Source: Calothrix sp. PCC 6303 | GTDB lineage: Bacteria; Cyanobacteriota; Cyanobacteriia; Cyanobacteriales; Nostocaceae | NCBI RefSeq assembly: GCF_000317435.1 | Contig: NC_019751.1 | Location: 1,054,001-1,118,000 of the forward strand | Direction: 5' to 3' | DNA: 64,000 bases | Notes under the pieces: model-generated | Databases searched by the model: none | Seen by the model: only the letters and a program-made list of their open reading frames with translations | What the model was told of the DNA's origin: nothing | In this document: piece after piece, positions 9,526-34,982 of the stretch | Layout: each line of letters opens with the position of its first letter | Numbering within the stretch: position 1 is the first letter of the stretch | Position numbers and translations under genes: made by a program

Positions 9526-9535
9526 AAAGTAAGTA

Positions 9536-9640: not shown

Positions 9641-9648
9641 TAATATTT

Positions 9649-11287: not shown

Positions 11288-11359
11288 ATAGTTTTATACC
11301 CATTTCAAAAGTCACTGCAAGACCTGTAACTAATTGCAAGTTCTTTGCTTAAACAAGTA

Positions 11360-11404
11360 AACCTCATCAACTCCTGCTGTATTAATAGCAGTTGATGAGG
11401 TTTT
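11360..11404 (+). terminator. intrinsic terminator
   Basis: A 13-bp perfect stem (AACCTCATCAACT with AGTTGATGAGGTT) is extended by an inner TGCT/AGCA pairing and followed by T's. It points to a transcript coming from the left on the plus strand, which can only be the 34-codon ORF or a small RNA. Confidence 0.85.
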
Positions 11405-11439
11405 AATTGAATATAGGACTACTATTTGATTTCTGAAAA

Positions 11440-11610
11440 GACACGTAGGGTATGTTAGCGACAGCGTAACGCACCATTTATAAGGGTTTGGTGCGTTACG
11501 ACGTTCCGTCTTTTATTGGATGCCGTCAGGCTATACGCACCCTACAGTACCTAATTTTGTAAGTGCAAAGCACAGGCTACGCCAACAAAAATCAAACCGG
11601 ATTCCTATAT
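11440..11610. repeat. MITE-like dispersed repeat, copy 1 (partner at 59480-59690)
   Basis: Contains inverted GTAGGGTRTGTTA / GGTGCGTTACG segments and ends with AAGTGCAAAGCACAGGCTACGCC and CGGATTCCTATA, which recur nearly base for base at 59637-59686. Non-coding. Confidence 0.7.
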
Positions 11611-11726
11611 ATAAAAAACCTTCAAATTAAAATGGGATAGGCAGTAAGCCCATCCCGATTTAATTAATTGTATTTGAGAAATAAACATTTATTTGGTAGA
11701 TGACGTATTTTTGTTTGTGCTAATGC

Positions 11727-12395
11727 TTATGCTGTCTTTTGTTTTTTACTCTTAGCTACTACCATACCGCCAACAGCTAGTAATCCTAAGATTGCCCCAG
11801 GTTCGGGAACAGCCTGAGTCACTCCTCTAACTGCGATCGCATTCACGTCAAAACCATCTCTCCCATCAGCCACTTGAGATTTATCTACCACTCTGACGTA
11901 CTTGTATGTGTCATTATTGCCAATCTGAAGTGTCGCACCTTCTTTTTCTTTGTAAGCGCCATCAGCAATATTTTTAATCGTACCAATTGATAACCAATTC
12001 TTTAAATCGTTACCAACGAATATTTGTATCCGTTCATCGTGATATGACTGCTTTTCATTAGCAGAACCCCAAGTTGTTTCCCATACAGTAACTTCCTTAG
12101 TAAATTTCTTGCCGAACTCAAAGATTGCTTCTCCACCTAAACCTAAACTCAGAAAATTCTGGTTTTTAGTGTGAAAGAATTTTTCCACATCAGCTTCTTC
12201 ACCTTTATATCCTTTATCATAACTACCTAATGCATTATCTGTTATCCTTCTCCAACTAGTTTGAATTCCCTGACCTTCTTTATATTCAAGAACATTAGTC
12301 GCAAAATCTAATGTTCCTGCAAATACGGGAGTTGTACTTAAAGCAGTTGCTGCAATGGAAAATGGAAGTAAAGTAGAAAAAACTTTCTTAAACAT
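11727..12395 (-). CDS. PEP-CTERM sorting-domain exported protein (copy 1)
   Basis: Secreted protein of 222 residues with an N-terminal signal peptide (MFKKVFSTLLPFSIAATALS...VFAG) and a C-terminal PEP-CTERM tripartite signal. The tail has VPEPGAILGLLAVGGMVV, then a basic tail KSKKQKTA, and is recognised by an exosortase. The middle (about residues 28-190) looks like a beta-sandwich of the discoidin/lectin type (VTVWETTWGS, ERIQIFVGNDLKNW, YKYVRVVDKS), which would suit binding of a surface glycan. The last 28 codons, the downstream sequence and the leader are shared with the next gene. Ligand unknown; the lectin-like reading is from pattern only. Confidence 0.85.
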   Translation of the reverse strand: MFKKVFSTLLPFSIAATALSTTPVFAGTLDFATNVLEYKEGQGIQTSWRRITDNALGSYDKGYKGEEADVEKFFHTKNQNFLSLGLGGEAIFEFGKKFTKEVTVWETTWGSANEKQSYHDERIQIFVGNDLKNWLSIGTIKNIADGAYKEKEGATLQIGNNDTYKYVRVVDKSQVADGRDGFDVNAIAVRGVTQAVPEPGAILGLLAVGGMVVAKSKKQKTA

Positions 12396-12480
12396 GGATT
12401 TTATTCTCTTTCGTTTTGATGTGTCTATTGCTTGCTAACCAATTAAGCTTAATCGGCAGAATCATGAGTGCTTTTTCTAT
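12384..12480 (-). promoter_or_regulatory. 5' leader shared with the second PEP-CTERM gene
   Basis: The leader carries CGTTTTGATGTGTCTATTG, then AAGCTT and a CTTTTT...TGTTTGTTTGC block in the same order as at 13390-13500. Conservation of non-coding DNA in both leaders suggests shared regulation or recent duplication. I do not assign exact -10 or -35 boxes. Confidence 0.5.
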
Positions 12481-12535
12481 TGTTTGTTTGCAAAACTTAT
12501 GGGAATTACAACAATGATTCCAGTACATTCAAAGT

Positions 12536-12562
12536 TAGAGACTTAGCATTGCTAGGTCTCTA
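12536..12562. repeat. short palindromic repeat (hairpin)
   Basis: TAGAGACTTAGCA facing GCTAGGTCTCTA, an imperfect member of the AGACGTAGC family, between the two PEP-CTERM genes. It may end transcription of copy 2. Confidence 0.65.
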
Positions 12563-12660
12563 TAAATATCTATCTGTGGCGTTTTTTTTAAAATTGATAT
12601 TAATTGGATTTCAGAAAAGTATTTATTTGGTAGATGACTTACTGTTGCTTTTGCTAATGC

Positions 12661-13395
12661 TTATGCTGTCTTTTGTTTTTTGCTCTTAGCTACTACCATA
12701 CCGCCAACAGCTAGTAATCCTAAGATTGCCCCAGGCTCAGGTACACTTGCCGGATCGACGCGGAATGTGTGGTTATCGGTTTCAAAACCACCACCAGTAG
12801 TTTGGGAAAGAACAACTCTATTGAAGTTTTCAGTTTTGTTTCGAGCAAAGATTTCAAAGAAAGCGTTCTTTTCCCCACCGTGTTGAGAAGCGGAAACAGA
12901 TGCGAGATTATTCATCTCGTCATAATCCATTGATTTGACAAGGGTGTCACCATTAAAGAATTTGATTGTGTTACCGACGCTCAAAGCACCTGCATCAAAA
13001 CCAAAGTAGTTAAAGGTACCTTTTACAGCTTCAATAATTGTGTCTTTCCCTTGGAAAACTGCTAAATATTTAGAAGTATTCACTTCAGCATTCACGCCAG
13101 ATGGTGCCCATTGATCGGCATAAATGCCTGTTTGCCCAGAATAAGCTGTAGTGGAGTAACTACCATCTCCAGAAAATGAGTATTTAACTTTATCATTACC
13201 AGGAACCCCACCGTTATTAAAATCGAGGGTTGTATAGTTAGGATTATTAACTTGATTTGAGAAAGCACCTTCATTGGTGGCAGCATCACGATATGAACCA
13301 CTGCTGTATGTTAATCCCAAAGCTTGAGCAGAACCAGCTTGAGCCACAGATACGATAGCAGATAAAGCAGCAATTGAAAGAAGTTTCTTAAACAT
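12661..13395 (-). CDS. PEP-CTERM sorting-domain exported protein (copy 2)
   Basis: Protein of 244 residues with a signal peptide (MFKKLLSIAALSAIVSVAQA, cleavage near AQALG) and a C-terminal PEP-CTERM signal identical to copy 1 from VPEPGAILGLLAVGG to the end. The middle differs from copy 1. It has the pattern of other PEP-CTERM surface proteins: Gly/Asn-rich strands, TTLDFNNGGVPGNDKVKY, a GTFNYFGFDAGALSVGN stretch and an FEIFARNKTENFNRVVLSQ strand, probably a beta-sandwich. Exported by Sec, processed by an exosortase not in this window and probably attached to the outer surface or sheath. No function beyond that is supported. Confidence 0.85.
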   Translation of the reverse strand: MFKKLLSIAALSAIVSVAQAGSAQALGLTYSSGSYRDAATNEGAFSNQVNNPNYTTLDFNNGGVPGNDKVKYSFSGDGSYSTTAYSGQTGIYADQWAPSGVNAEVNTSKYLAVFQGKDTIIEAVKGTFNYFGFDAGALSVGNTIKFFNGDTLVKSMDYDEMNNLASVSASQHGGEKNAFFEIFARNKTENFNRVVLSQTTGGGFETDNHTFRVDPASVPEPGAILGLLAVGGMVVAKSKKQKTA

Positions 13396-13721
13396 TTGTC
13401 GTAGCCTTTTTCTCGTTTTGATGTGTCTATTGTGTGCGATCTAATCAAGCTTTAGCAGCAGAGTTATTACTGCTTTTTGTATTTTTTGTTTGCGAAATGA
13501 ACATGTTTTTAAGTTAACTCATGATTCCTTTTATCTACTGATCCTGATGACCCTGATGTGAAGATACAGTCTGTGAAACTATTGTTAAATATGAGGAGTT
13601 CATAAAGTGTTCAGTAATTTCAAATATCTGAACATCTGTGGTTAAAAATCTTGGATATTACTTTACTATTAGTTTGTTTTGTGTGTAATTCTGAAAAAGT
13701 AAATCAAACAAAAAAACAGCG
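13396..13721. other. intergenic, divergent promoters for PEP-CTERM copy 2 and DUF938 gene
   Basis: The first 110 bases repeat the leader of copy 1. The rest is AT-rich. A small number of promoter-like hexamers are present but none is convincing. No gene seen. Confidence 0.5.
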
Positions 13722-14369
13722 ATGACTAACGACGCAAAGCAATACGCACCAGCGACACAGCGTAATCGTGAGGTGATTTTAGAGGTTTTGTTGGAAGTTT
13801 TACCAAAAACAGGGACTATTTTGGAAATTGCCAGCGGGACAGGTGAACATGCTGTGTTCTTTGCCCCGCGTCTCAAACCCCGTAGATGGTTGCCTTCAGA
13901 TCCAAATCCTTCGTCTCGTGCTAGTGTTGCGGCATGGATGGAAGATACTGGGTGTGATAATTTGGATTCACCAATTCAAATTGATGCATCTATGCCAAAT
14001 TGGGTAGTGGAAACCACTGCAAAACCCCAAACTCCCGTCACAGCAATGGTGAATATTAACATGATTCATATTTCACCCTGGTTGGCATGTTTAGGATTAA
14101 TGGCAGGTGCCAACAGAATTTTGAGTGCTGGTGGTATCTTATATATGTATGGTCCCTATAAAATAGATGGACAACATACTGCCCCCAGTAACGAAGCCTT
14201 TGATGCGTCATTGCGATCTTCAAATCCAGAATGGGGTATTCGTGACTTGCATCAAGTAATTGCTGCTGCTAAAGCTGAAAATTTGAATTTCCTCAAAACT
14301 GTCCAAATGCCTGCAAATAACCTTTCAGTAATATTTGAGAAGGTAGAGGGCTTTTCTGAAAAGGTATAA
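13722..14369 (+). CDS. DUF938 family SAM-dependent methyltransferase-like protein
   Basis: Protein of 215 residues matching the DUF938 family. It has an N-terminal YAPATQRNREVIL, a SAM-binding motif I (TILEIASGTGEHAVFFA), an acidic strand after LPSDPNP, then MVNINMIHISPWLA, GGILYMYGPYKIDG and a C-terminal LSVIFEKV. The family is widespread in proteobacteria and cyanobacteria and also in animals; substrate unknown. It stands alone, with its own promoter region, and faces the SDR gene. An 11-bp inverted repeat (14440-14450 with 14535-14545) lies between the two convergent genes. Confidence 0.88.
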   Translation: MTNDAKQYAPATQRNREVILEVLLEVLPKTGTILEIASGTGEHAVFFAPRLKPRRWLPSDPNPSSRASVAAWMEDTGCDNLDSPIQIDASMPNWVVETTAKPQTPVTAMVNINMIHISPWLACLGLMAGANRILSAGGILYMYGPYKIDGQHTAPSNEAFDASLRSSNPEWGIRDLHQVIAAAKAENLNFLKTVQMPANNLSVIFEKVEGFSEKV

Positions 14370-14439
14370 ATTAGCTGACGCAATGTCGCAATATTGCTTT
14401 GTGTGGGAGTATAGTCAAAATTATTAAAAATATGTAGGG

Positions 14440-14545
14440 GTAGGGGTAAGTAGCTGGGTAGAAATAAACAGAACTATGTAACAAAATGTAAATTTACCTC
14501 ATAACAGGAGGCACAGCCACCCCAAATGTTTGCGCTTACCCCTAC
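14440..14545. terminator. inverted repeat between convergent genes
   Basis: GTAGGGGTAAG at 14440-14450 pairs with CTTACCCCTAC at 14535-14545 across an 84-base loop. Both arms are in GGGGTA-type low-complexity sequence. May act in termination, but the loop is long. Confidence 0.35.
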
Positions 14546-14603
14546 TCACTACTCCCTGACTACAACAATAATTTTTTCCCGCTCACCTAGTTAACACATG
14601 GGA

Positions 14604-15464
14604 TTATATATCCTTAACTGCTGCACCCTTAACTACATCTCTCTCCACTAACTGCGTTTCCTGAGAACTGCGGACATATTTTGTCACAAGAGTGCGAGGT
14701 ACAAACCTAACTATTGTTGCTAAAAGCTGATTTTTCCAACCGGGAATCACTACAGTTTTATTTGCCATCAAACCGTGATATCCGATTTTTGCCACGGTTG
14801 CTGCATCCATCATTTTAGTTCCTTGGGCAACTTGAATTTCAGCCATCCCAGTTCTTTGATGGAAAGCTGAATGTGTGGGTCCAGGACAAAGTACAGTTAT
14901 AGAGACACCAGTACCTTCTAGCTCGTTAGCGATCGCTTCGGAGAACGAAAGGATGTATGATTTAGTGGCAAAGTAAACTGCCATCAATGGACCTGGTTGA
15001 AAAGCAGCAGTGGAAGAAACATTTAATATCTTACCTTCACCGCGTTTCACCATATCCTGAAGAAAGAGTTTGGTTAAATGGGTTAAACAAACCAAATTTA
15101 CCTGTAACATTTCCAGATCAGATGTCACATTACTATCGGTGAAAAAACCCAATTTCCCAAATCCGGCATTATTGACTAAAACATCAATTTTGATTGACGC
15201 TTCCTGCATCTGATTATAAATTTCTAAAGGAGATGTTGGTAGGGATAAATCTTTAGTTACACCTGTAACTAAAACGTTAAATTTATCTTTAAATTCAGCA
15301 ACAACTTCAGCTAATTTTTGCTCATTTTTATCTACTAATACCAGGCTATAACCGTCACTGGCAAAAAGTTGAGCAAATTCGTAGCCAATGCCGTTTGCGG
15401 CACCTGTAATTAGGGCAGTTTTGGGAATTTTATCCCGATCAATGGGGTTCATAATTGATATCAA
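14604..15464 (-). CDS. short-chain dehydrogenase/reductase
   Basis: Classical SDR of 286 residues. The cofactor motif TGAANGIGYEFA is near residues 20-31, NNAGFG at about 98, a catalytic Ser in ILNVSSTAAF, and the YxxxK pair as YFATKSY. The family reduces or oxidises alcohols and ketones with NAD(P)H. The closest pattern is the DltE/YqjQ-like group of SDRs, but the substrate cannot be told from sequence. The C-terminal part with VVIPGWKNQLLATIVRFVPR is amphipathic and may touch membranes. The ATG at 15464 gives MISIMNPIDRDK; the fifth codon (15452) is an equally likely start. Confidence 0.88.
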   Translation of the reverse strand: MISIMNPIDRDKIPKTALITGAANGIGYEFAQLFASDGYSLVLVDKNEQKLAEVVAEFKDKFNVLVTGVTKDLSLPTSPLEIYNQMQEASIKIDVLVNNAGFGKLGFFTDSNVTSDLEMLQVNLVCLTHLTKLFLQDMVKRGEGKILNVSSTAAFQPGPLMAVYFATKSYILSFSEAIANELEGTGVSITVLCPGPTHSAFHQRTGMAEIQVAQGTKMMDAATVAKIGYHGLMANKTVVIPGWKNQLLATIVRFVPRTLVTKYVRSSQETQLVERDVVKGAAVKDI

Positions 15465-15825
15465 CTAAAGTTTTGAGAACTGGAAAAATCAATCGCAGAG
15501 TAAATATCAAAGTCATCATGGAAAGCTTTTTCCTATAACTTTCGATGATTATCAAGGAATTCAGTCATTAAAGCTAACACACACAAAGCATGAATGACTA
15601 TTTGGGGAATCCAGCCCCGATGGCTATTATCATCAATATTTCTCTATCATAGCGACTCAAAGTAATTATATTTGCCTATTTAGCACTATTACTAATTACT
15701 GGATTTTAGATGTTATTAAAGCTACAAAATTCTCTATAAATAAAGTAATAAAAAGACTTTTATGGTAATTTAATTGTGAAATTTAAAAGGCTTTCTAGTC
15801 CAGTTCAATCTCAAGTGCGAAATTT
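15465..15825. other. intergenic, AT-rich
   Basis: Divergent promoter region for the SDR and the HTH-GrpE gene. No ORF, repeat or clear hairpin stands out beyond a weak GGGGAATCCAGCCCC inverted repeat at about 15604. Confidence 0.45.
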
Positions 15826-16497
15826 ATGTCTGATGTTAACTACACCCAACAATTGCAAGGGTTGATGCGAAATGCAGAAATTACCAGTTTCAATGCATTA
15901 TGTCAGGTTGCATGTGTTTCTCGGCGACAACTATTGAAGCTACGCAGAGGAGAAGTTGAACAAGTTAAAATTGAGACATTAATTAAACTTTCACAAGCTT
16001 TGAATATTTCTTTAGATGCTCTAATAAATGGGCTTTTACCTTTGGATGTCAAATGTTCTTTTAGTAATATTACTGAAACTGATACAAAAAATGTAACTTC
16101 TGTTCTTGAAAAGCAGGAAACGTTAAAGCTAGGAGAAAATTTTACAGAGGAGCAAAAGCAGGTAGTTTTGGAAGGATTCCAGCAATCTTGCTTAGAAATT
16201 CTCGAATCGTTGTTGTTGCAACTGCCAACAGTAGCACATAAAGCGAGGGAAAATCCTCAGTTACCTGCTGTGAATATTCTACCACTGCTAGAAAAGCCAT
16301 TAGAACGATTATTACAGGCTTGGGGAATAGAAGCGATCGCACAAGTTGGAGAAGAGGTTTTTTACAATCCTCAACTACACCAACCGATGGAAGGAAATAT
16401 CTTACCAAGTCAAATAGTCAAAGTTAGGTATGTTGGATATCAGCAGCGGGGAAAGCTGCTATATCGTGCTAAAGTTAGCCCAATTCTTAACAAATAA
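15826..16497 (+). CDS. HTH (Xre-like) protein fused to a GrpE-like head domain
   Basis: Protein of 223 residues in two parts. Residues about 5-70 form an Xre-type helix-turn-helix (FNALCQVACVSRRQLLKLRRGEVEQVKIETLIKL...LNISLDALI). The last 60 residues match the beta-wing head of GrpE, the DnaK nucleotide-exchange factor: WGIEAIAQVGEEVFYNPQLH, then VKVRYVGYQQRGKLLYRAKV. These mirror FGVEVIAETNVPLDPNVHQ and GYTLNGRTIRAAMV of E. coli GrpE. A helical linker joins them, but the long GrpE coiled-coil stalk is missing. This suggests a DNA-binding factor that senses or recruits DnaK. It is followed 157 bp later by a STAS-domain gene on the same strand. Domain reading is by eye. Confidence 0.75.
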   Translation: MSDVNYTQQLQGLMRNAEITSFNALCQVACVSRRQLLKLRRGEVEQVKIETLIKLSQALNISLDALINGLLPLDVKCSFSNITETDTKNVTSVLEKQETLKLGENFTEEQKQVVLEGFQQSCLEILESLLLQLPTVAHKARENPQLPAVNILPLLEKPLERLLQAWGIEAIAQVGEEVFYNPQLHQPMEGNILPSQIVKVRYVGYQQRGKLLYRAKVSPILNK

Positions 16498-16654
16498 CTA
16501 ATTTCACCAACGAATTACATATCACATTCGATTATTCTTTAACAAAAATTAACTATGCTCTCATAATATGTATTAACTGGCAACAATTCTTAAAATGAAC
16601 TATGATGGACGCATAAAACAGCAATCTACACATTCTTGCGATAAATACTGAAAT

Positions 16655-16984
16655 ATGCAAACCGAACAAGTGAAAGTTTTTCAACCCATTGGAAATTTTG
16701 ATGCAACGAAGTCACAGGAGTTTCGTCACTTACTTTCTCAATTAACACAATGTAGTACAAAAGTTGTGTTAGTGGATTTAAAAGATGTAACTTTCATGGA
16801 TAGTTCTGGACTTGGTGTTCTAGTTTTGGCATTTAAAAATTTGAGAGCAGCCAATGCTAAACTAGTTATCTGTTCAATTAATGAACAAGTCAGAATTTTG
16901 TTTGAATTAACTGGAATGGATAAGGTCTTTGAAATTTTTGCAAATCAACAAGAATTCGAGAAATCGATGCTATCTAGAGCCTAA
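16655..16984 (+). CDS. STAS-domain anti-sigma-factor antagonist-like protein
   Basis: Single STAS domain of 109 residues. The signature FMDSSGLGVLVLAFKNLR has the Ser pair at residues 50-51 where SpoIIAA-type antagonists are phosphorylated by a partner kinase. The strand FQPIGNFDATKSQEF and the C-terminal LTGMDKVFEIF are typical. It would act in a partner-switch with an anti-sigma kinase or serve as an adaptor for a PP2C phosphatase; neither is adjacent. A terminator follows 57 bp after the stop. Confidence 0.9.
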   Translation: MQTEQVKVFQPIGNFDATKSQEFRHLLSQLTQCSTKVVLVDLKDVTFMDSSGLGVLVLAFKNLRAANAKLVICSINEQVRILFELTGMDKVFEIFANQQEFEKSMLSRA

Positions 16985-17040
16985 GTAATTTATTATCAAC
17001 AATTGTTGTTACATTTAATCTATCAAATAAGTCAAAATTT

Positions 17041-17082
17041 AACCCCTTTAGTTTCCGAAAATCGGGAAACTAGAGGGGTTTG
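17041..17082 (+). terminator. intrinsic terminator (works in both directions)
   Basis: Long stem AACCCCTTTAGTTTCC / GGGAAACTAGAGGGGTT with one mismatch, flanked by A's on the left and TTTG on the right. It ends the STAS transcript and lies 106 bp beyond the stop of the transglutaminase gene on the other strand. Confidence 0.85.
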
Positions 17083-17187
17083 TCGAATCAACAGTTATCA
17101 GGGACAATTTTTAGTTTGCAAACAGTAAAAAGCGATAATTTTACTTGAGTTTCAATACAGAACAAAGTCACAATAACTAATAACTGT

Positions 17188-18864
17188 TTACTGATTTAAA
17201 GGTGGTAATTCTTCAATAATTTTGAAGCGAATATGGTTAATTGCTAACTCACCAATAGAAATATCTTCTTTTTTGAGTCTTTCACCTTTACTCATTAAAG
17301 TTTCAAAAGAAATACCTTTACCAATCTCAATATGATACCAGGATAAGCCCATAAAAAAGCGGGTGGGATGGGCACTTTGATAACCCAAATCATCTGGGTT
17401 TGATTCCATCGGCAACCAGCCGATACTGGGAATATAGAATTCTAGCCAAACATGGTTAAAATCAGGTTCTAGGGGAATGCCTTGGTGATCGGCATAGGGT
17501 GGACATTTATACCTACCTACGGTGCGGCAAGCGATACCATTGAGGCGGCATAATGCTAGTAAAACTCCTACATACTCACCACAGGAGCCAGTACCACGCT
17601 CTAAGACAACATCGGGGGCATCTATGTGAGGTTTGATACTATATGAAAGTTGATCATAAACATAATTACGGATACTATACATTTTCCGTAACAAATTAGT
17701 TTCACTACCTACAGCAACTTTGGCGGCATCCTGAACAATTGTATTATCCATTGCTAACTCATCATCATCAACGAGATAGCGAGTTTGAAATTCCTCAGAC
17801 AGTTCTGGGATATTTTCCACATCACGGGGAGTTAGACGATATTTGACACCACGAACTTCGAGAATTGCTTTCCAACCAAAAAGGTGACGTTCTCCTGGAA
17901 CAAGGGTTTCAAACTTAAAAACAGCTACCTTTTGTCCGTCGATAATTTCTTCGCTGAAGGGTAAACCAACAGCTTCAACACTCACTACCCTTTGGCGATC
18001 AGTATTACTAGGTAAAGCAATCCGCCATTCGACTTCTGGTAAGTATACCTCTTCGAGGGGAGCAATTTCCTCGATGTAAGACATTTCGATGCGGTACCCG
18101 TTAGAAAGACAGCAACGAGTTTGGGGATCGTAATGATAACTCAGGGGATGAATGAAAGTGCGATCGCGGTAAGCTAATTCTTGGCTAGGATCGGCATTTG
18201 GGTTATCTCGAATAAAAGCCTCTTCCGAAGCATAAGCCACATAGATCGTTTCCTTTCCAGATTCGCTATTGCTATGTACAGCTAGACCTGTGGGACATTC
18301 AAATGGTGTTAGAATGCTAAACCGAATATCTCCGGTAGCCCTATCAAGGGCAAAAATCGTTTGTTCAACTTTATCAGCAACCCAAAGAGTTTCTTCACAA
18401 ACCGCTAAATTAGCAATTCCTACACCAGGAGCATAAAATTGGGTAATTTTGCGTCGGGTTTCACAATCATAAATCAAGATTGCTCCCATTTTTTGGCAAC
18501 TGACATAAACAGTTGATCCCCAAACAGCAATTCCATCAGCTTGGTAGGGCAAAGTGATAAAATGTTCCAATCCCCAAGAGTTAAACTTACATAAATAGAT
18601 ACTCTTACCCCTTGTTACCCAGAGCGTATCTTCCCACAAACTTATACCAGTGATATCCATGAATTCACTGGTATGGTGCGGGTTGAGAATCTTGGTATTG
18701 TCTGTAACTGGGTCAACTTGCAGGAGATAACCGCGATTTGAGTCAATGGCAATTAGCGTATTCTTGATAAAAGCGATGCCACCAAGGGCAGCAGCACAAA
18801 GAGGTCGAATTGTTCTTTGCCCAAACATTTGGCTATTCGGAAAACTAGTAAGTGCAGAACCCAT
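17188..18864 (-). CDS. beta-propeller / transglutaminase-like fusion protein
   Basis: Protein of 558 residues. The first 230 or so form a beta-propeller of the SMP-30/NHL type, with blades such as GIAFIKNTLIAIDSNRGYLL, GISLWEDTLWVTRG and NLAVCEETLWVADK. The C-terminal half is a transglutaminase-like domain: RGTGSCGEYVGVLLALCR with the catalytic Cys at about residue 427, FNHVWLEFY with the His at about 470, and a following ESNPDD for the Asp. No signal peptide is evident, so the protein seems cytoplasmic. Members of the family act as proteases or peptide cross-linkers; the propeller could hold the substrate. It has its own promoter region and no operon partner. Substrate unknown. Confidence 0.82.
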   Translation of the reverse strand: MGSALTSFPNSQMFGQRTIRPLCAAALGGIAFIKNTLIAIDSNRGYLLQVDPVTDNTKILNPHHTSEFMDITGISLWEDTLWVTRGKSIYLCKFNSWGLEHFITLPYQADGIAVWGSTVYVSCQKMGAILIYDCETRRKITQFYAPGVGIANLAVCEETLWVADKVEQTIFALDRATGDIRFSILTPFECPTGLAVHSNSESGKETIYVAYASEEAFIRDNPNADPSQELAYRDRTFIHPLSYHYDPQTRCCLSNGYRIEMSYIEEIAPLEEVYLPEVEWRIALPSNTDRQRVVSVEAVGLPFSEEIIDGQKVAVFKFETLVPGERHLFGWKAILEVRGVKYRLTPRDVENIPELSEEFQTRYLVDDDELAMDNTIVQDAAKVAVGSETNLLRKMYSIRNYVYDQLSYSIKPHIDAPDVVLERGTGSCGEYVGVLLALCRLNGIACRTVGRYKCPPYADHQGIPLEPDFNHVWLEFYIPSIGWLPMESNPDDLGYQSAHPTRFFMGLSWYHIEIGKGISFETLMSKGERLKKEDISIGELAINHIRFKIIEELPPLNQ

Positions 18865-27663: not shown

Positions 27664-29010
27664 ATGTCTCAGTCAAGTTTTCAACGTGCAAATACTCTGA
27701 AAGCGGCTTTTTTGGCTTGTAATGTTGAGCCACTTGAACCAGCCGAAATGGAACGGTATTATGTCGATTTATCGTCAGTACGAAAAACTTCGGCTATTGA
27801 TAATGTCAGTACAATTTTAGATTTTCAAGAAGCAGGTGATTTTACAACAATTCTATTTACTGGACATCGCGGTTGCGGTAAAAGTACCGAGTTAAAGAGA
27901 ATTCAAAGTCTTTGGGAAAACAATTATCATGTTATTTATTTGGAAGCAAATGAAGAAACAGATATTAATGATGCTCGGTATACAGATTTATATTTAATTG
28001 TCATTAAACAAGTTGAATTTGAATTACGAAAATTAGGTTTAACTTTTGACGACAAGCTATTAAAAAGTTTTGAATCGTGGTTTAAAGACATTACTCAAGA
28101 AAACGAGCAAAGTGTCGAGAAATCAGTCAACGTTGATGCAGAGGCTACTCTCAGCCCCACAGCACCGTTTCTTGCTAAATTAATGGTGAAATTGCTGGCA
28201 CAAATTAAAGGTTCAGACAAGCAAAAAACAACCATTCGCCAAACTCTAGAAAAAGATTTATCTCGCCTCAAATCTGATACTAATTTGTTACTGAGTGATG
28301 CCTATGTTAAATTGCGTCAGAAGTTTCCTGAATGTAAAGGCTTATTAATTATCTTTGACAATTTGGATCGAGTTCCTCCTGTAGTTGCCGAACATTTGTT
28401 TTTTGATTATGCGGCTCAGATGCAGGAATTAAATTGTACAATCATTTATACAGTGCCAATTTCGATTCTTTGCTCACCCAAAAATCCCCTGAATCAATTT
28501 GATGGCAATCCCCACATTGTGCCGATGATTAATATCTATGAGTTTGAACGGCATAAATGTGAATTGAATTACGATCAAAAAGGTTTAGATATCATAGCCA
28601 GTGTCATTGAAAAACGAGTTGATGTTGATGCCATTTTCGAGAGTCGCAATCAACTACTAGAACTAGCCAAAGCCAGCGGAGGACATGTACGTCAGTTAAT
28701 GCAAATGATGCGCTCTGCATGTCAAACAGCTAGCACCCGTAAACACGCCAAAATCATGTCCGAAGATATAGATTATGCAGTTAAACAGCAACAATTTACT
28801 TTTGAGCGGTTTATTCCAGAAGAACATTATGCTCATTTGGCTCAGGTTTGTTTAACCAAAGATGTCAGCAAAGATGAAGTCGGGCAATTAATGTTATTTA
28901 ATACTTCCGTGTTGGAATATAACGGCGATAAAAGATGGAATTATCCAAATCCGGTGGTGAAGCAAAATGAGTTCTTCCAACAAGCCCTCAAAGCAGCCCA
29001 GCAACCATAA
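27664..29010 (+). CDS. P-loop AAA/STAND-type ATPase, first gene of a two-gene module
   Basis: Protein of 448 residues. Walker A GHRGCGKST is at residues 67-75 and Walker B LLIIFDNLDRV at about 228-238. A sensor-like TIIYTVPISILCS follows, and then a helical winged-helix-like C-terminal part with GGHVRQLMQMMRSA. This is the Orc/Cdc6-STAND style of NTPase found in bacterial signalling and conflict proteins. No nuclease, TIR or membrane effector is fused. The next gene overlaps it by 44 bp in another frame and encodes a TPR protein, so the two are very likely translated together and act as partners. Role unknown. Confidence 0.78.
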   Translation: MSQSSFQRANTLKAAFLACNVEPLEPAEMERYYVDLSSVRKTSAIDNVSTILDFQEAGDFTTILFTGHRGCGKSTELKRIQSLWENNYHVIYLEANEETDINDARYTDLYLIVIKQVEFELRKLGLTFDDKLLKSFESWFKDITQENEQSVEKSVNVDAEATLSPTAPFLAKLMVKLLAQIKGSDKQKTTIRQTLEKDLSRLKSDTNLLLSDAYVKLRQKFPECKGLLIIFDNLDRVPPVVAEHLFFDYAAQMQELNCTIIYTVPISILCSPKNPLNQFDGNPHIVPMINIYEFERHKCELNYDQKGLDIIASVIEKRVDVDAIFESRNQLLELAKASGGHVRQLMQMMRSACQTASTRKHAKIMSEDIDYAVKQQQFTFERFIPEEHYAHLAQVCLTKDVSKDEVGQLMLFNTSVLEYNGDKRWNYPNPVVKQNEFFQQALKAAQQP

Positions 29011-30673
29011 TAGTAGTGAAAATCAAGCGGAAATTGGCAAGTTTATCGCCACAAATCAGGATGAATTTGCAGAATTAGTGACATTTATTGATTTTGCTGA
29101 AAAATTTACACTAGGTTTTATCGAAATTAACTTTCCTCCAGATATCAACCTCTTAATTGCCGGATTACAGCAGAATTCCCAATGTCAAGAAATCCAATTT
29201 GTAATTTTAGACTTTCCTGAGAAAAATTTGCGATTTCTGCGAGATGAATTAGTAAGGCAATTAGCTGAAATTACCAAAGAAAGCAATAAAAAACTTGTTT
29301 TATTAATTCGGAATTTAGAAAAATCCATCGGTGTCTTTGGAGATTACCCACCAATTTTACAGGATTTAAACTTTGTCCGCGATTCCTATCGTCAAACCGT
29401 ACCCCATCCACTTTTATTTATCTTGCCAGATTATGCGATTTCCCGGTTAGCAAAATTTGCTCCAGATTTTTGGGCTTGGAAATCAGGTTTATTCCGGTTT
29501 AAAACTACAGAATTGACAAGAGATAGGGCAATCGCTAGCACTTTGGATGCAGATACAAATATAGCCCGCTTACCAACACCAGAACAACAAGAACGTATCG
29601 ATTTATTACATAGCTTGTTGATGGAATATAAACCAACTGGAGAAATACCAAATCAAGAAAATCTCCGGAATTGCGGAAATATTTTAAATGAATTGGGAAC
29701 AGCATATTTAAGTCAGCATAAACCAAGCCAAGCTAGAGAATATTTAAAGGAAGCTTGGAAAATTACTCAGGAATTTTCTGATTATTCTTTGGAAATTCGA
29801 GTGATTAATCAGTTGGGTGGAAGCTATTCTCAACAACGACAGTTTGCAACAGCTCGCAGCTACCATCAACAAGCTTTAAATATTGCCAAAAAGCAGGAAA
29901 GTAATCATGCTGTTGCTAATTGCTTATTTAATTTAGGTAATGTTTCTCTAGATACGCGACAGTTTCAGCAAGCAAGAGATTATTATCAACAAGCCCTGGA
30001 AATTAAAATCGAACTTGGCGCGAGGTTTGAATCTGCTCGCACTTACCACCAGTTGGGAAGGGTTGCCCAACAATTGCGGGAATATGAGCAAGCAAGGGAT
30101 TATTATCAACAAGCCCTGGAAATTAAAATCGAATTTGGTGCGAGGTATGATTCTGCTAGCACTTACCACGGCTTGGGAATACTTGCCCGAAAGTTGCGGG
30201 AATATGAACAAGCAAGGGTTTACTCTCAACAAGCCCTGGAAATTAAAATCGAATTTGGCGCGAGGTTTGAATCTGCTGGCACTTACCACAACTTGGGAAT
30301 AGTTGCCCAACAGTTGCGAGAATATGAACAAGCACGGGTTTATTATCAACAAGCCCTGGAAATTAAAATCGAATTTGGCGCGAGATTTGAATCTGCTAGC
30401 ACTTACGGGCAATTAGGATTACTTGCCCAAGATTTGCGAGAATACCCTCAAGCAAGGGATTATTATCAACAAGCTCTAGAAATATATATCGAATATGGCG
30501 ATCGCTATTCCCAAGCCCTCACACTTTATTGTTTAGGGACACTTGCCAAAGCTGAGGAGAACTACGCAGAAGCTAGGGCTAATTTGCAGACAGCTTTGGA
30601 GATATATGTTGAGTACCAAGACGAATATATGGCTACGATGATGCAGGAGTGTTTAGAGGATTTACCGGAGTGA
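28967..30673 (+). CDS. TPR protein with an N-terminal inactive-STAND-like domain, partner of the ATPase
   Basis: Protein of 568 residues. Residues about 25-190 resemble a P-loop fold without Walker A (EIQFVILDFPEKNLRFLRDEL, KLVLLIRNLEKS, HPLLFILPDYAISRLAKFAPDFWAWKSGLFRF). This pattern recurs in cyanobacterial TPR proteins and fits inactive STAND modules. From about 215 onward come some nine tetratricopeptide repeats. Five of them are on a 40-residue period with ARDYYQQALEIKIEFGARF, nearly identical at DNA level. The gene overlaps the ATPase gene by 44 bp. TPRs usually bind peptides or partner proteins, so this is the likely sensor or scaffold arm. The stop codon is the first base of a 94-bp inverted repeat. 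Confidence 0.78.
   Translation: MSSSNKPSKQPSNHNSSENQAEIGKFIATNQDEFAELVTFIDFAEKFTLGFIEINFPPDINLLIAGLQQNSQCQEIQFVILDFPEKNLRFLRDELVRQLAEITKESNKKLVLLIRNLEKSIGVFGDYPPILQDLNFVRDSYRQTVPHPLLFILPDYAISRLAKFAPDFWAWKSGLFRFKTTELTRDRAIASTLDADTNIARLPTPEQQERIDLLHSLLMEYKPTGEIPNQENLRNCGNILNELGTAYLSQHKPSQAREYLKEAWKITQEFSDYSLEIRVINQLGGSYSQQRQFATARSYHQQALNIAKKQESNHAVANCLFNLGNVSLDTRQFQQARDYYQQALEIKIELGARFESARTYHQLGRVAQQLREYEQARDYYQQALEIKIEFGARYDSASTYHGLGILARKLREYEQARVYSQQALEIKIEFGARFESAGTYHNLGIVAQQLREYEQARVYYQQALEIKIEFGARFESASTYGQLGLLAQDLREYPQARDYYQQALEIYIEYGDRYSQALTLYCLGTLAKAEENYAEARANLQTALEIYVEYQDEYMATMMQECLEDLPE
29958..30480 (+). repeat. 120-bp direct tandem repeats within the TPR gene
   Basis: The phrase CAAGCCCTGGAAATTAAAAT recurs at about 29991, 30111, 30231 and 30351, with a diverged unit at 30471. 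The period is exactly 120 bp (40 codons). Units differ at only a few positions, including third codon bases, which indicates recent duplication or gene conversion. Confidence 0.9.
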
Positions 30674-30838: not shown

Positions 30839-31129
30839 TTATTCTATACCTGATGTAATTTCCTGTGCCCCATGTATAACAGCAAGCACATCAATTTGTT
30901 CGGGTTTGATGTAATAGATAATTCGATATGAACCTTCAATCACTTCCCGAATTTGCTCAGTTTCAAACTCTGGTACAATTCGACCAGATAGAGGGAAATT
31001 CACAATTTGCTGAGAACGTCTGGTTATGCGGTCGATAATCCTAGTGGCATACTGAGGTGAATTTTGAGAAATATAATTATAAATTGCTGAGAGATTTTCT
31101 ACGGCTGTTTCTGTCCAAAAAACTTTCAC
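30839..31129 (-). CDS. ParE/RelE-superfamily toxin
   Basis: Toxin of 96 residues in the ParE group: WTETAVENLSAIYNYISQNSPQYA at the N-terminus, FPLSGRIVPEF in the middle and IREVIEGSYRIIYYIKPEQIDVLAVIHGAQE at the end. ParE toxins inhibit gyrase, and RelE relatives cut mRNA on the ribosome. The antitoxin gene is directly upstream and overlaps by 4 bp (ATGA). It is the second gene of a minus-strand TA operon, with a second TA pair 0.4 kb upstream. Confidence 0.88.
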   Translation of the reverse strand: MKVFWTETAVENLSAIYNYISQNSPQYATRIIDRITRRSQQIVNFPLSGRIVPEFETEQIREVIEGSYRIIYYIKPEQIDVLAVIHGAQEITSGIE

Positions 31130-31314
31130 TCTGGTAGTCCAAATTTTGCCCTAACTTCCTGTACAGAAGTTACATTACCAGCCTGACTATCAACAAGTCC
31201 AGCTTCCACAACTTGCCTAACATAAATCTCATACATAAGGTCATCCCATGTTGAGTTATCAGGTAATTTATCAATGAGCTTTCGAGCTTCTTCTTTAATA
31301 TTGAGCTTTTCCAT
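31126..31314 (-). CDS. antitoxin of the ParE-like pair
   Basis: Protein of 62 residues (MEKLNIKEEARKLIDKLPDN..., ending VREVRAKFGLPE-like). The region TWDDLMYEIYVRQVVEAGL is typical of short antitoxins paired with ParE toxins in cyanobacteria (helix pair with a D-x-hydrophobic pattern). It overlaps the toxin start by 4 bp, the usual translational coupling. DNA binding by its N-terminal part is inferred from the family. Confidence 0.82.
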   Translation of the reverse strand: MEKLNIKEEARKLIDKLPDNSTWDDLMYEIYVRQVVEAGLVDSQAGNVTSVQEVRAKFGLPE

Positions 31315-31560: not shown

Positions 31561-31827
31561 TTAGCTTTCGTCTTTATAAATCTTCCCGCGATGTCCAACT
31601 TCGACAACACTTACCACTAGATTATCATCGAAAATATCATATATAACGCGATAGTCGCTGACTCTAATTCGATAAGTGTTTTCTTTGCCTTTGAGCTTTT
31701 TCACTCCATTTGGACGGGGTTCTATGGCTAAATCATCAATTTTAACTTGTATACGCTCTTGAAGTTCTGATGGTAATTTTTTAAGTTGTTTCAACGCACC
31801 CTTTAATATTTCAACTTTGTAACTCAC
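31561..31827 (-). CDS. RelE-family mRNA interferase toxin
   Basis: Toxin of 88 residues with the full RelE outline: VEILKGALKQLKKLPSELQERI at the start, PRPNGVKKLKGKENTYRIRVSDYRVIYDI in the centre (the Arg/Tyr-rich catalytic segment) and VVEVGHRGKIYKDES at the end. RelE toxins cleave mRNA in the ribosomal A site during stress. It follows its antitoxin gene with a 4-bp overlap. Confidence 0.92.
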   Translation of the reverse strand: MSYKVEILKGALKQLKKLPSELQERIQVKIDDLAIEPRPNGVKKLKGKENTYRIRVSDYRVIYDIFDDNLVVSVVEVGHRGKIYKDES

Positions 31828-32063
31828 GCAACTTCCTTTTTAATTTCTGTTCGCAGCTCCTTTTTAGCTTCTTCCCATGACATTGAATCATCAATTTTAG
31901 ATGCTTCTCTAGCTTTGTTATAGGCTTTTAAATCTTCTTCTTCTTCTTCTGCTTCTATTTTTTGAAGTAGTGCATAAATATCATCTAAAGTGCTGTCATA
32001 AGATTGGTGCAACAGTATATTAATTTCTTTTATTAATTGTTCGCGTTCTTGTTCACTTTTCAT
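31824..32063 (-). CDS. antitoxin of the RelE pair
   Basis: Protein of 79 residues, highly charged (AEEEEEDLKAYNKAREASKIDDS, then MSWEEAKKELRTEIKKEVA). The N-terminal helix (ERE QLIKEINILL) and C-terminal toxin-binding helix fit small antitoxins linked to RelE. It overlaps the toxin start by 4 bp and is itself only 20 bp after the stop of the UBA-like membrane protein gene, so all three may share a transcript. Confidence 0.82.
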   Translation of the reverse strand: MKSEQEREQLIKEINILLHQSYDSTLDDIYALLQKIEAEEEEEDLKAYNKAREASKIDDSMSWEEAKKELRTEIKKEVA

Positions 32064-32083: not shown

Positions 32084-32521
32084 TTAGTTGCTTGGTGGTA
32101 AATTTTTCCCATCACTTGGTTCAGTATATTGACAATAGACATTTAAGCCAATTTTGAGAATATAAAGCACAATAATAGTTGCAATTGAAGGATCAAGAGG
32201 AATTGCGGTTAAAGCCATCAAAGATGTAATTGTAGCCGTTAATAACACAGCATTTTCTGGGCTTTTGGTATAGTCGCTCAAACGTGCGCGAAATCCTTCA
32301 TCACCACAAAGTTCATCTCGCACCACATCTAAGGTAGTTTGCCAGATGTTTTTGCTTCCCATTGTCGGTTTGCCGTTTTTCTCAATCCACAGTTCCTCAA
32401 AGGAAGTATCCAGGTTGCCGTTATGATGTTCTAATGTAGCGATCGCTTTGTTGGCTGGTTGATATTCTTTGAGTAAGTCGCGTACTGAATTGATTTCATC
32501 TGCGGTGAGTTGTGCGTTCAT
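32084..32521 (-). CDS. small membrane protein with UBA-like N-terminus (paralogue 1)
   Basis: Unknown family, 145 residues. The N-terminus (LTADEINSVRDLLKEYQPAN, then AIATLEHHNGNLDTSFEELW) has the three-helix G-N-L-x-x-(A/S)-hydrophobic pattern of UBA/CUE folds. The C-terminus has one or two hydrophobic segments (AVLLTATITSLMALTAI and SIATIIVLYILKIGLNVYCQY). It is clearly related to the protein at 34620-34982 in both halves. It lies 20 bp upstream of a RelE-type TA pair and just downstream of the P450 gene on the same strand. A membrane adaptor is one reading; function not known. Confidence 0.72.
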   Translation of the reverse strand: MNAQLTADEINSVRDLLKEYQPANKAIATLEHHNGNLDTSFEELWIEKNGKPTMGSKNIWQTTLDVVRDELCGDEGFRARLSDYTKSPENAVLLTATITSLMALTAIPLDPSIATIIVLYILKIGLNVYCQYTEPSDGKNLPPSN

Positions 32522-32555
32522 ATTTTTTCAGATTTCCTGGAAAACTGCTGTAATT

Positions 32556-33881
32556 CTATTTAGATAAACACCCAAACCTAACTTGCAGATTATCACGAGG
32601 ACGAGGTGTTGGCACCATCGCCATTTCTGGTTTATCCCCATTGACTAGTTCCCATTGATACTTTCTTATTAGTAATGCTGCAAATATTTTCATTTCTAAC
32701 TTAGCAAATTCTTTACCCAAACATTCCCGTACTCCGCCACCAAATGTCATATAGCTAAAGGGTTTAGTTTTATCTTCAGCCCGATCAGGATTAAATCTCT
32801 CCGGCTCAAAGCTATCTGGCTCAGTATATATACTTTCATCTCGATGTGTCCTATTTACCTGATATAAAACTGCCCAACCTTGAGGAATTTGATAACCATT
32901 GAATTCGCAAGTTTGAATAACTTCTCGGAAACCACCACCAACTGGAGGAATCACTCGCATTACCTCTTTGAGAACTTGTTCTAGATAAGTCATTTCTTTG
33001 AGACTTTCCAGAGTCAGAGGTTGACTAAAGTCAAAATTTTGTTGTTCAGTACGCACCTTAGCCATAACATCGGGATGCTGTGCTAAGAGTAAACAGAAAG
33101 AAGCGATCGCAGATGTTAATGTTTCATGTCCAGCAAACAGTAATAACAATACCTGATCTTTCAGTTCTTTGATGCTCAACTTACTACCATCTTCATCTGT
33201 CGCTTGGAGTAACAACCCCAAAGCGTCTTGGCTAGAAGCGGTTTGTTGTTGACTCTGAAGAATAATCTGCTCTATCTTCATCAACAGTTGTTCTCGTGCA
33301 TGTAAAGCTTTACCAAATTTAGTCCAAGGTAAATTTATCGGGAGACTAAATAACCCTTCAGAGAACTCTTCAAAGAATTGTCCAATTTCGTCATCACTTG
33401 CTGTATCTGTACCAATCAATAACTTGCAAGCGACATCAAAAGTATATTTCTTTAATTCTGGATACCAAGTTAAATCCCCAATTTTTTCCCATTTTTGCAA
33501 ATAACCATGGGTAATTGCCTCCATCCCACCAACATAACCTGACAAAGCCCTAGGTTGAAAAGCTTGAGATAGTAACTTTCGTCGTTGTAGGTGTTCACCA
33601 CCTTTTTGTATAGCTAAAGAGGCTGCACCTAGTAACTCCTTAGTCGTTTTAGGAAAACTACTGGTAAAATAGGTATTTTCATTGGTGAGTAAAAAACGAT
33701 TAGCATCTGCACCAATGACAACTATAGTTGGACGACCAAATAAATGGGTTTTGTAGAGATTTCCATACCAATTTTGGCGCTTTTGTGAGAAACTGCGATC
33801 GCGTAAAAAGTCAATCGTCTCACCAAGCAACGGTAAACCTAACTTGCCAGGAGGTAAAGGTAAATTTTTAGTAGATGACAT
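32556..33881 (-). CDS. cytochrome P450, CYP120-like
   Basis: Haem monooxygenase of about 441 residues. The Pro-rich start (LPLPPGKLGLPLLGE), I-helix motif FAGHETLTS, ExxR as KEVMR, and haem-binding FGGGVRECLGKEFA with the Cys at about residue 387 are all present. The overall pattern (IGADANRFLLTNEN, YFTSSFPKTTKELLG) is that of CYP120A1, a retinoic-acid-binding cyanobacterial P450; substrate here is unproven. The ATG at 33881 has GAGGCAGG upstream and is preferred over a TTG at 33896. The UBA-like gene follows 34 bp downstream on the same strand. No redox partner gene adjoins. Confidence 0.92.
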   Translation of the reverse strand: MSSTKNLPLPPGKLGLPLLGETIDFLRDRSFSQKRQNWYGNLYKTHLFGRPTIVVIGADANRFLLTNENTYFTSSFPKTTKELLGAASLAIQKGGEHLQRRKLLSQAFQPRALSGYVGGMEAITHGYLQKWEKIGDLTWYPELKKYTFDVACKLLIGTDTASDDEIGQFFEEFSEGLFSLPINLPWTKFGKALHAREQLLMKIEQIILQSQQQTASSQDALGLLLQATDEDGSKLSIKELKDQVLLLLFAGHETLTSAIASFCLLLAQHPDVMAKVRTEQQNFDFSQPLTLESLKEMTYLEQVLKEVMRVIPPVGGGFREVIQTCEFNGYQIPQGWAVLYQVNRTHRDESIYTEPDSFEPERFNPDRAEDKTKPFSYMTFGGGVRECLGKEFAKLEMKIFAALLIRKYQWELVNGDKPEMAMVPTPRPRDNLQVRFGCLSK

Positions 33882-34058
33882 AACCGCCTGCCTCAAAACA
33901 AATTAATCTTTAACTTTAATAATCTATCACCTACGGTAATTGGCTTTGCCATCAAGTTATTTAACGTATTTAGAAGGATGTAGCTTTAGACCAAAATTTT
34001 CGGTATAAAAACTTCAGGGACAATCAAACATACAATAGACTTGTCTACAAATTCAACT

Positions 34059-34199
34059 CTAGTACGATTCGGGGCAAATAAAGCTACCATACTCTACGAG
34101 AAGCCGCTACCCTAGCGGGAACGCTAAGGGCGAACGCGTCTATGAAATGGCTAAAAAGCTTATAGAAATGTCTTTATTCCTTCTGCCGATCTGTACTAG
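34059..34199. mobile_element. 141-bp MITE-like element, ends CTAGTAC
   Basis: Begins CTAGTACGATTCGGGGCAAATAAAG and ends in an inverse of CTAGTACAGATCGGCAGAAG. The interior AAAAAGCTT and TTTATTCCTTCTGCC blocks recur in the element at 44213-44408. Non-coding; between the P450 gene and the PepSY-like gene. Confidence 0.65.
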
Positions 34200-34232
34200 T
34201 CAAATCCTTAATCCTTGATTGTCCAAAAAGTT

Positions 34233-34511
34233 ATGAATCGAGCTTTTCGCAAATATCACCGTACTATTGCTATGATCGTTTCTCTACCCTTAGCGATTAC
34301 CGTTTTAACAGGTATGGCTACCACCATGGTACAACAATGGTCATTCAGCTTTGGGATTTCCAGATCTATAATTTTGCAGATTCATACAGGTAAAATCTTC
34401 CATTTGGAAGGTATTTACCCGATTTTGAATGGATTAGGGCTAATTGGACTACTTGTTACTGGTTTGACTATGACAGGTTTATTTCGTGGAAAAGCGAAAA
34501 AACCAAGTTAG
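34233..34511 (+). CDS. small PepSY-associated TM-like membrane protein
   Basis: Protein of 92 residues starting MNRAFRKYHRTIAMIVSLPL, a classical opening of PepSY-TM helix proteins. Two membrane helices are visible (about 12-32 and 66-84) joined by a short loop with ILQIHTGKIFHLEGIYP. The H-T-G-K region matches the LHTG motif of PepSY-TM iron or reductase-related proteins. Length is far less than full PepSY-TM proteins. I start at the ATG at 34233; a TTG at 34215 would add six residues. Confidence 0.75.
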   Translation: MNRAFRKYHRTIAMIVSLPLAITVLTGMATTMVQQWSFSFGISRSIILQIHTGKIFHLEGIYPILNGLGLIGLLVTGLTMTGLFRGKAKKPS

Positions 34512-34619
34512 TGGACAAAGGCTACAAAAAAATATGCCAGTTGCGGAGGTGCTAAGGGTATCGAATTTACATAGATGTGTGTTAATAATTACATCTATAA
34601 TTTGATCTAAAAGCATCGC

Positions 34620-34982
34620 ATGAATTCAATTACCGCTCAAGAACTCAAAGAATACAGATTACTTCTATCTGATTATCCAGATAATACTGCTTTAGACGGA
34701 CTTAATGCCGTGGAACAATGCCAGGGTAATCTAGAAGATGCTTTGGCGTTACTTGTAAATCAAAGTGGGACTAGACAGTTACTGCAAATCGAACTGGATA
34801 ATCTCGCGCAGATGTGCCGTAATGCAGTTTGTAGTCAACCCACCGAAGACTTTATCGGTTTACTTAATATTGTGTCGGGATTTTTACCACCTCCGGCATC
34901 TTTGGCGGTTCCAGTGGCGTTGTATATTATCAAACTTGGTGTTCGTAACTATTGCCAAATCTCAAATCCCGGCAGCAAATAA
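34620..34982 (+). CDS. small membrane protein with UBA-like N-terminus (paralogue 2)
   Basis: Protein of 120 residues, homologous to 32084-32521. The N-terminus ITAQELKEYRLLLSDYPDN...GLNAVEQCQGNLEDALALL matches the other's UBA-like pattern. The C-terminus PPPASLAVPVALYIIKLGVRNYCQ matches its membrane segment, ending NYCQ in both. It lacks about 25 residues in the middle. Unlike paralogue 1 it is on the plus strand and stands alone. Function not known; the two together show that the family has been duplicated or kept locally. Confidence 0.7.
   Translation: MNSITAQELKEYRLLLSDYPDNTALDGLNAVEQCQGNLEDALALLVNQSGTRQLLQIELDNLAQMCRNAVCSQPTEDFIGLLNIVSGFLPPPASLAVPVALYIIKLGVRNYCQISNPGSK

Follow-up and report, generated by a model that had tools for sequence, protein, structure and literature searches.

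Two small genes on either side of a P450 gene in Calothrix sp. PCC 6303 raise the question of whether their products are related and with which other genes they work. Both lie in a stretch of 64,000 nucleotides (contig NC_019751.1, positions 1,054,001 to 1,118,000), referred to below as the window. P0001 (32084..32521, minus strand) encodes 145 amino acids, and P0002 (34620..34982, plus strand) encodes 120. A sequence-only reading took them for paralogous UBA-like membrane proteins of no named family, grouped around the P450, and suggested a recruitment adaptor, perhaps for the nearby ATPase/TPR module. Our analysis shows that genes of the P0001 type (type B), as well as a set of second copies from the other side of the family tree (type C), recur next to genes encoding large proteins with CHAT and TPR domains. 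The explanation that we favour, and whose chances we consider about even, is that each type-B or type-C protein works as the dedicated partner of a large NLR-like conflict protein, composed of a TPR array and an exchangeable engine and probably serving in defence. Homology, recurrent linkage, the conserved His and Cys of CHAT and the exchange of engines can be read from the sequences themselves.

The P0001/P0002 family and its branches

Both open reading frames (ORFs) are intact, each having an ATG start and an in-frame stop. The proteins are 27% identical over 117 positions. P0001 contains ..EHHNGNLDTSFEEL..GLNVYCQ.. and P0002 contains ..EQCQGNLEDALALL..GVRNYCQ.., in agreement with the VYCQ and NYCQ ends noticed at the outset. 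Comparison of the P0001-type alignment A2 (14 rows, P0002 left out) with the P0002-side alignment A9 (24 rows) by hhalign yields a probability of 98.7% (E 2.2e-16, 126 columns). The N-terminal pattern shared by the two proteins reflects homology as well, since the profiles of the N-termini alone (P0002-side A8 against A2) match at 96.8% with E 2.6e-10 over 44 columns; another N-terminal comparison (E 1.5e-14) was not used, as P0002 was present in both alignments, which were therefore not independent. Judging from these profiles, P0001 and P0002 are distant homologues over their entire length and belong to one cyanobacterial family.

A scan of genome contigs produced 101 loci, 80 of which were retained as the type-B set, and all of these relatives appear cyanobacterial. 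Prior to alignment, two locus proteins with an early stop (L089, L152) and one for which no start could be found (L146) were left out; alignment A3 comprises 65 of the 77 intact locus proteins with P0001 and P0002, and alignment A5 comprises the N-termini of 60 of the 77 with the same two proteins, the remainder being omitted by hand in both cases. The first scan of genome contigs with P0002 as the query gave no match, and no relatives of the family were found in phages and viral contigs. The source genome (6.96 Mb) has four members, and a profile built from them matches members of any type in 148 of the 195 genomes of the order.

The absence of a family name holds for Pfam and NCBIfam, against which P0001, P0002 and family members were scanned, but PADLOC contains an unnamed candidate model, PDC-M35B (PDLC04594), that matches residues 4-133 of P0001 (1.5e-7, 29.7 bits). 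P0002 has no match to this model, which recognizes 11 of 38 family members. Among 194 genomes of the phylum, eight contain a match to it, and in two the match is strong (L223 and L224). Two cysteines, C72 and C130 of P0001, are invariant in all 38 aligned members.

In a quick tree of 73 members, based on few columns, a long branch separates type B (29 rows, including P0001) from the rest (44 rows, including P0002), with support 100 for each. P0001 and P0002, being on opposite sides of the tree, are therefore old paralogues. The closest relatives of P0001 are L079, L083 and L087 (support 100; identity 83, 83 and 77%, respectively). P0002 belongs to a small clade and has at least nine other copies with 54-57% identity among 192 genomes of the taxonomic family. 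The core copies, called type A, also group together (15 rows, support 98), the tree containing part of the 18 loci used below as a control.

Large neighbouring genes of types B and C

Flanks of 5 kb on both sides are available for 50 of the 80 type-B loci. A CHAT match is found within 3 kb of the type-B gene in 31 of these 50 loci (41/80 overall), and any CHAT, NACHT, TPR or TPR-protein N-terminal match in 34 of them (52/80 overall). With 42 CHAT matches spread over 6.96 Mb, a linkage of about 5.7% would be expected (binomial probability of the observed linkage 3e-26), a rough background estimated from a single genome with split CHAT matches counted separately. At 80% identity, 66 type-B proteins form 45 clusters, of which 28 have a CHAT partner, two have TPR only, ten have no partner, and five have short flanks. 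The partner gene is convergent behind the type-B gene in 24 cases, upstream on the same strand in another 24, and placed otherwise in four. In particular, Pfam identifies CHAT, NACHT and TPR domains in the partner of L042, and CHAT and TPR in that of L044. The His and Cys columns are conserved in all 41 long CHAT domains on the type-B side, and thus the CHAT enzymes look active as far as sequence can tell. P0001-type genes also occur in two plasmid records, one with upstream genes annotated as a TPR protein and a CHAT protein, and the other, which is the same place as L087, with a large convergent gene. In several loci (L045, L047, L048; cluster c5 in 11 loci, cluster c7 in 10), a pair that by reading resembles VapBC precedes the type-B gene on the same strand.

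The window has a different engine. A STAND/KAP-like ATPase gene (27664..29010, plus strand), with P-loop ATPase matches that are all below the Pfam cut-offs, overlaps a TPR gene (28967..30673, plus strand), whose product has no Pfam match in its N-terminal region of about 215 residues. The TPR gene is convergent with P0001, two toxin-antitoxin (TA) pairs lying in between. Homologues of both the ATPase and the TPR protein adjoin type-B genes in three of the 80 loci (L111, L124, L129). L106, whose contig breaks off shortly afterwards, also has the TPR protein, N-terminal region included, beside type B. The suggested link to the ATPase/TPR module is thus borne out for P0001 but not for P0002, whose relatives have no CHAT neighbours (0/9).

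The TPR array of the window is 62% identical, over 328 amino acids and up to the C-terminus, to the C-terminal array of the CHAT-NACHT-TPR protein in L083. Identity to the arrays of L087, L123 and L128 is 50-58%, and to that of L079 it is 44% over 158 residues. Among the other arrays of its own genome the best match is 32%, and the maximum is 41%, over 74 residues. Moreover, L123 has a CHAT-NACHT-TPR gene and L124 the ATPase/TPR genes, while their type-B proteins are 92% identical. The engine differs while the small protein and the kind of TPR array persist, and hence these two form the constant pair.

Type C comprises 21 loci (L053-L058, L066, L074, L078, L209-L219 and L008; some loci in the L053-L078 range are type A), picked from incomplete lists of relatives. 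Loci L053-L078 were assigned to type A or C by sequence, though their contexts had already been seen; L209-L219 were assigned before that. In 17 of the 21 loci the type-C gene converges on a CHAT or TPR-CHAT gene directly behind it, including L055, where the genes overlap by a few bases. The spacing is two bases, with overlapping stop codons, in 11 of these 17 loci, and the outer genes of the two-base-spaced loci mostly differ, some being common to L209 and L215 and to L210, L211 and L219. The CHAT domains on this side retain L-S-A-C-E-T-G in 17/17 and S-C-H-G in 16/17 cases. The four exceptions are L008 and three fusions with a RelB-like antitoxin (L057, L058, L066). The pairs of L210, L211 and L219 stand, by reading, beside apparent parts of type I restriction-modification systems.

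As a control, no CHAT match was found beside the 18 core type-A genes (L072 and L073 having less than 3 kb of downstream flank); in L069, 88 residues remain of a CHAT-TPR N-terminus. Likewise, none of the nine P0002-type loci has a CHAT match beside it, and L201 has a TPR match 2.5 kb upstream. A more distant plasmid relative is overlapped by a large convergent gene annotated as hypothetical.

L008, the third member in the source genome (C3:2742418), lies about 100 bp ahead of an operon that contains E1, E2, RING-like, JAB and FtsH-ternary-system genes. The stretch from 8887 to 17920 of this locus (C3 ~2742900-2751900) contains FtsH-ternary-system, RING-like, E1, EAD8-trypsin, FGE-sulfatase, EAD, Ubl-E2 and JAB genes; FtsH ternary systems are called rare in cyanobacteria in the available text of Kaur et al. 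2020 (PMC7159879). Ubiquitin-like conjugation was rejected as the general context, as L209-L213, which are 72-75% identical to L008, have a convergent CHAT gene and no such operon in the available flanks (for L211, within the 2.5 kb present on the relevant side).

Several relatives are joined to antitoxins. In the fusions of L057, L058 and L066, a single protein combines the family domain with the RelB-like antitoxin (PF18506 in L057 and L066, by sequence in L058), and in L066 the fusion gene is followed by a ParE-type toxin gene. The two strong PDC-M35B loci, L223 and L224, have a trypsin-like protease upstream, a family protein with a Phd/YefM-like tail, and then a YoeB/ParE-type toxin; the protease and the toxin are assigned by Pfam in L223 and by likeness in L224, and the tails are below the Pfam cut-off in both. 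This arrangement could form a protease-gated TA unit. Protease, PDC-M35B protein and YoeB-like toxin genes stand in a row at 1085-2573 of L223 and at 833-2330 of L224.

A probably UBA-like head and a hydrophobic hairpin

The AlphaFold2 (AF2) model of full-length P0001, built from 67 aligned sequences (mean predicted local distance difference test score, pLDDT, 85.9; predicted template-modelling score, pTM, 0.80), has three N-terminal helices, a less certain linker and five further helices. The N-terminal part (residues 1-52, 32366..32521, minus strand; helices 7-16, 22-32 and 37-49) also folds as a compact three-helix domain when modelled alone (pLDDT 91.9, pTM 0.69). Whole P0001 gave no match in fold searches (best E 1.5, best Z 4.1). 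Since UBA domains were missing from these lists, the search was repeated with the domain alone. The four top ranks of 19 Foldseek matches are then taken by one HBS1-like and three UBA domains, with more UBA/CUE domains lower down, none being significant (E 1.7 or worse, template-modelling score up to 0.52). The second structural aligner, VIA, reaches Z up to 3.4 for the domain (root-mean-square deviation 4.1 over 47).

Among 62 N-termini scanned against Pfam, P0002 included, weak matches to UBA_4 (13), CUE (9), UBA_8 (4), HYPK (3) and the NBR1 UBA (2) are observed, the best E-values being 0.0018 for CUE, 0.003 for UBA_8 and 0.0049 for UBA_4. Shuffled versions of the same N-termini give zero UBA-type matches. 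No N-terminus passes the curated cut-offs of the UBA/CUE families (P0001 has 12.7 bits against the cut-off of 21.8), and COG6_N, a non-UBA family, matches eight of the 62, its best value (0.00091) being ahead of every UBA-type match. UBA-type matches are few among the 23 P0002-side N-termini (UBA_4 in two, UBA in one). Full-length scans of 67 members show weak matches to DUF7550 (16), UBA_4 (10), Cation_efflux (8) and CUE (5), with 0.0066 at best, and comparison of the whole family with sequences of the Protein Data Bank gave chance-level matches only (best 0.038). Other candidates were tried and rejected: TS-N, the N-terminal domain of EF-Ts, is a weak match (the P0002 side aligns in register with 20% probability and E 0.0011, type B with 5%), and a death-domain reading of P0002 is not significant (PYRIN 0.16).

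The likeness to the UBA/CUE families (UBA_4, CUE, UBA_8 and their kin) consists of the three-helix head and a G-(N/D) turn between helices 2 and 3. Ubiquitin-binding UBA domains usually have an M-G-F/Y loop. This loop is not visible in the family alignments, where D-Y-x-P-A prevails at its position. The N-terminus is probably a UBA-like but diverged domain, the evidence being moderate: the modelled helices, the excess of UBA-type matches over shuffles and the top Foldseek ranks agree with the initial UBA assignment, while each match falls short of significance.

The hydrophobic hairpin of P0001 (residues 91-131, 32129..32251, minus strand) is modelled as helices 91-104, 111-124 and 126-131. 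As to the membrane segment proposed for both proteins, the highest Kyte-Doolittle mean over 19 residues reaches 1.90 in P0001 and passes a threshold of 1.6 in 66/66 type-B proteins, but it is 1.49, below that threshold, in P0002. The two modelled hydrophobic helices of P0001 are 14 residues long each, and a soluble helical hairpin thus remains an alternative. Membrane insertion of the P0001 hairpin is possible.

Possible roles and related systems

According to the favoured explanation, the family protein would combine the UBA-like three-helix head with a helical body carrying the hydrophobic hairpin, and its large partner would combine the TPR array with an engine, that is, CHAT-NACHT, CHAT or, as in the window, a separate ATPase next to the TPR protein. 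The small protein would bind the TPR array and may act close to the membrane, as an adaptor of the engine or as its trigger, with a role probably in defence; P0002 would be a relative outside the CHAT/TPR linkage. A number of observations weigh against this explanation. For ten of the 45 type-B clusters, the nearest 3 kb contain no CHAT/TPR partner despite 5 kb flanks on both sides, and L098 and L099 retain just a short TPR end beside type B. The distance from the type-B gene to its partner ranges from 10 bp to about 3 kb, and therefore co-transcription is not general. The window lacks a CHAT gene, all 42 CHAT matches of the genome lying elsewhere, and the CHAT-TPR gene of L054 and L209 is broken into two or three ORFs. 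The A/C-side hydropathy is mostly borderline. Defence itself is suggested by domain types, by restriction-modification-like neighbours in three loci (by reading) and by the PADLOC candidate model.

The link of the family to two kinds of proteases, CHAT and the trypsin-like enzyme directly upstream in L223 and L224, would also fit a protein that is both substrate and effector, cut by CHAT (or trypsin), for example in the linker near residues 50-58, so that the freed hairpin damages the membrane in a gasdermin-like manner. Between the two parts of the AF2 model, certainty is lowest at residues 51-60 (block mean 70), and a hydrophobic hairpin is present in every type-B protein. Still, the gene persists without a CHAT match in the window, L106, L111, L124 and L129 (L106 and L111 being short on one side), and core type-A copies have no CHAT neighbour. 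This retention speaks against a pure CHAT substrate, and we consider such a role possible but not probable. The antitoxin fusions of L057, L058 and L066, as well as the Phd/YefM-like tail and the following toxin in L223 and L224, point rather to an inhibitor or antidote that would silence the TPR-CHAT or TPR-ATPase protein and whose loss or degradation would start the response, as in antitoxins; convergent genes whose stop codons overlap would also fit mutual control. However, the fusions may have arisen by accident in genomes rich in TA pairs, and in the ten type-B clusters lacking a partner there is nothing for an antidote to hold. Such loci speak against a strict antidote, and this role seems unlikely to us.

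The wide distribution of the family in the order (148/195 genomes) and the core copies without CHAT neighbours could, finally, mean a housekeeping family with no specific partner, its linkage to the common CHAT/TPR genes being passive. This is very improbable, as the linkage greatly exceeds the background in types B and C but is not seen in type A or the P0002 type, and as the two-base spacing is constant in 11 type-C loci, most of them with differing outer genes.

Taken further, the idea of a dedicated partner would make the membrane hairpin protein with the UBA-like head the constant second component of NLR-like immune receptors of cyanobacteria, the engine being swapped beside one kind of TPR array (CHAT-NACHT, CHAT, or the ATPase with a protein that may have an inactive NTPase at its N-terminus). 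Where it is joined to antitoxins and encoded behind proteases, the same module would convert TA pairs into protease-gated suicide switches. We regard this extension as speculative and rather unlikely to hold as a whole. Multicellular cyanobacteria have CHAT/TPR and STAND proteins in abundance (42 CHAT matches in this genome), presumably for immunity or cell death, and to our knowledge it is mostly not known what they act through. A recurrent small neighbour, in some loci with overlapping stop codons, would provide the CHAT/TPR proteins with a defined second component. If the UBA-like head is true, bacteria would employ this fold outside ubiquitin signalling, in conflict systems linked to proteases; should the antitoxin fusions function with the adjoining proteases, two defence principles would be joined.

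Among known systems, EACC1-caspase pairs are described, together with FtsH ternary systems, in the available text of Kaur et al. 2020 (PMC7159879), and related conflict systems in that of Kaur et al. 2021 (PMC8195603) and PMC10907252; the term UBA does not occur in the available text of these three sources. As far as that text of PMC7159879 goes, the EACC1 pairs of multicellular bacteria also have a small constant, possibly membrane-inserted protein beside a caspase-superfamily peptidase. Yet EACC1 has one transmembrane helix with alpha+beta extensions, is prevalent in actinobacteria and has a 5'-3' gene order, whereas the family described here is all-helical and cyanobacterial, has a UBA-like head and is convergent with or downstream of the CHAT gene. 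No EACC1 match was obtained in the Pfam scans of the family, the presence of EACC1 in that copy of Pfam being unverified. In Craspase, the TPR-CHAT protein of type III-E CRISPR (PMC9729208, available text), a TPR array is likewise joined to a CHAT protease with dedicated partners, while the Pfam scans link the small protein to no CRISPR protein, with no search made for CRISPR parts near the loci. The PDC-M35 system resembles the one studied here in its small protein, matched by PDC-M35B and adjoining a trypsin-like protease gene in the core members L223 and L224. These core members have about 143 bits compared with about 29 for P0001, and P0001-type genes pair with CHAT/TPR or ATPase/TPR genes instead. 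The sole genome match of PDC-M35A (PDLC04593, the one A model tried) is C3:6766349, far from the window, and a literature search found no mention of 'PDC-M35'.

The remaining genes around P0001 and P0002 recur rarely or not at all in the loci compared. The stop codon of P0001 is separated by 20 bp, as had been noted, from the start of an antitoxin-like gene (31824..32063, minus strand) with no significant Pfam match, which is followed by a ParE/RelE toxin gene (31561..31827, minus strand; PF05016, 1.8e-13). A second ParE/RelE-type pair (30839..31314, minus strand; toxin PF05016, 2.6e-17) lies between P0001 and the TPR gene. The first pair recurs beside one of the 80 type-B loci (L083) and homologues of the second toxin beside two (L128, L155), and the TA pairs were thus rejected as parts of the system. 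For the P450 between P0001 and P0002, no relative was found in the available stretches of the 80 P0001-type loci, and the branches of the two proteins are split by the long, well supported branch of the tree; contrary to the initial proposal, the P450 was therefore dropped from the system, and the grouping of P0001, P450 and P0002 looks coincidental. Upstream of P0002, a small ORF (34215-34508) has a weak PepSY_TM match and a relative beside one of the nine P0002-type copies (L204); having no relative in the 80 P0001-type loci, it was also rejected as part of the system. Finally, the repeats of the TPR gene produce a long mirrored ORF on the opposite strand (29948-30412), and the repeat number of this gene may change easily.

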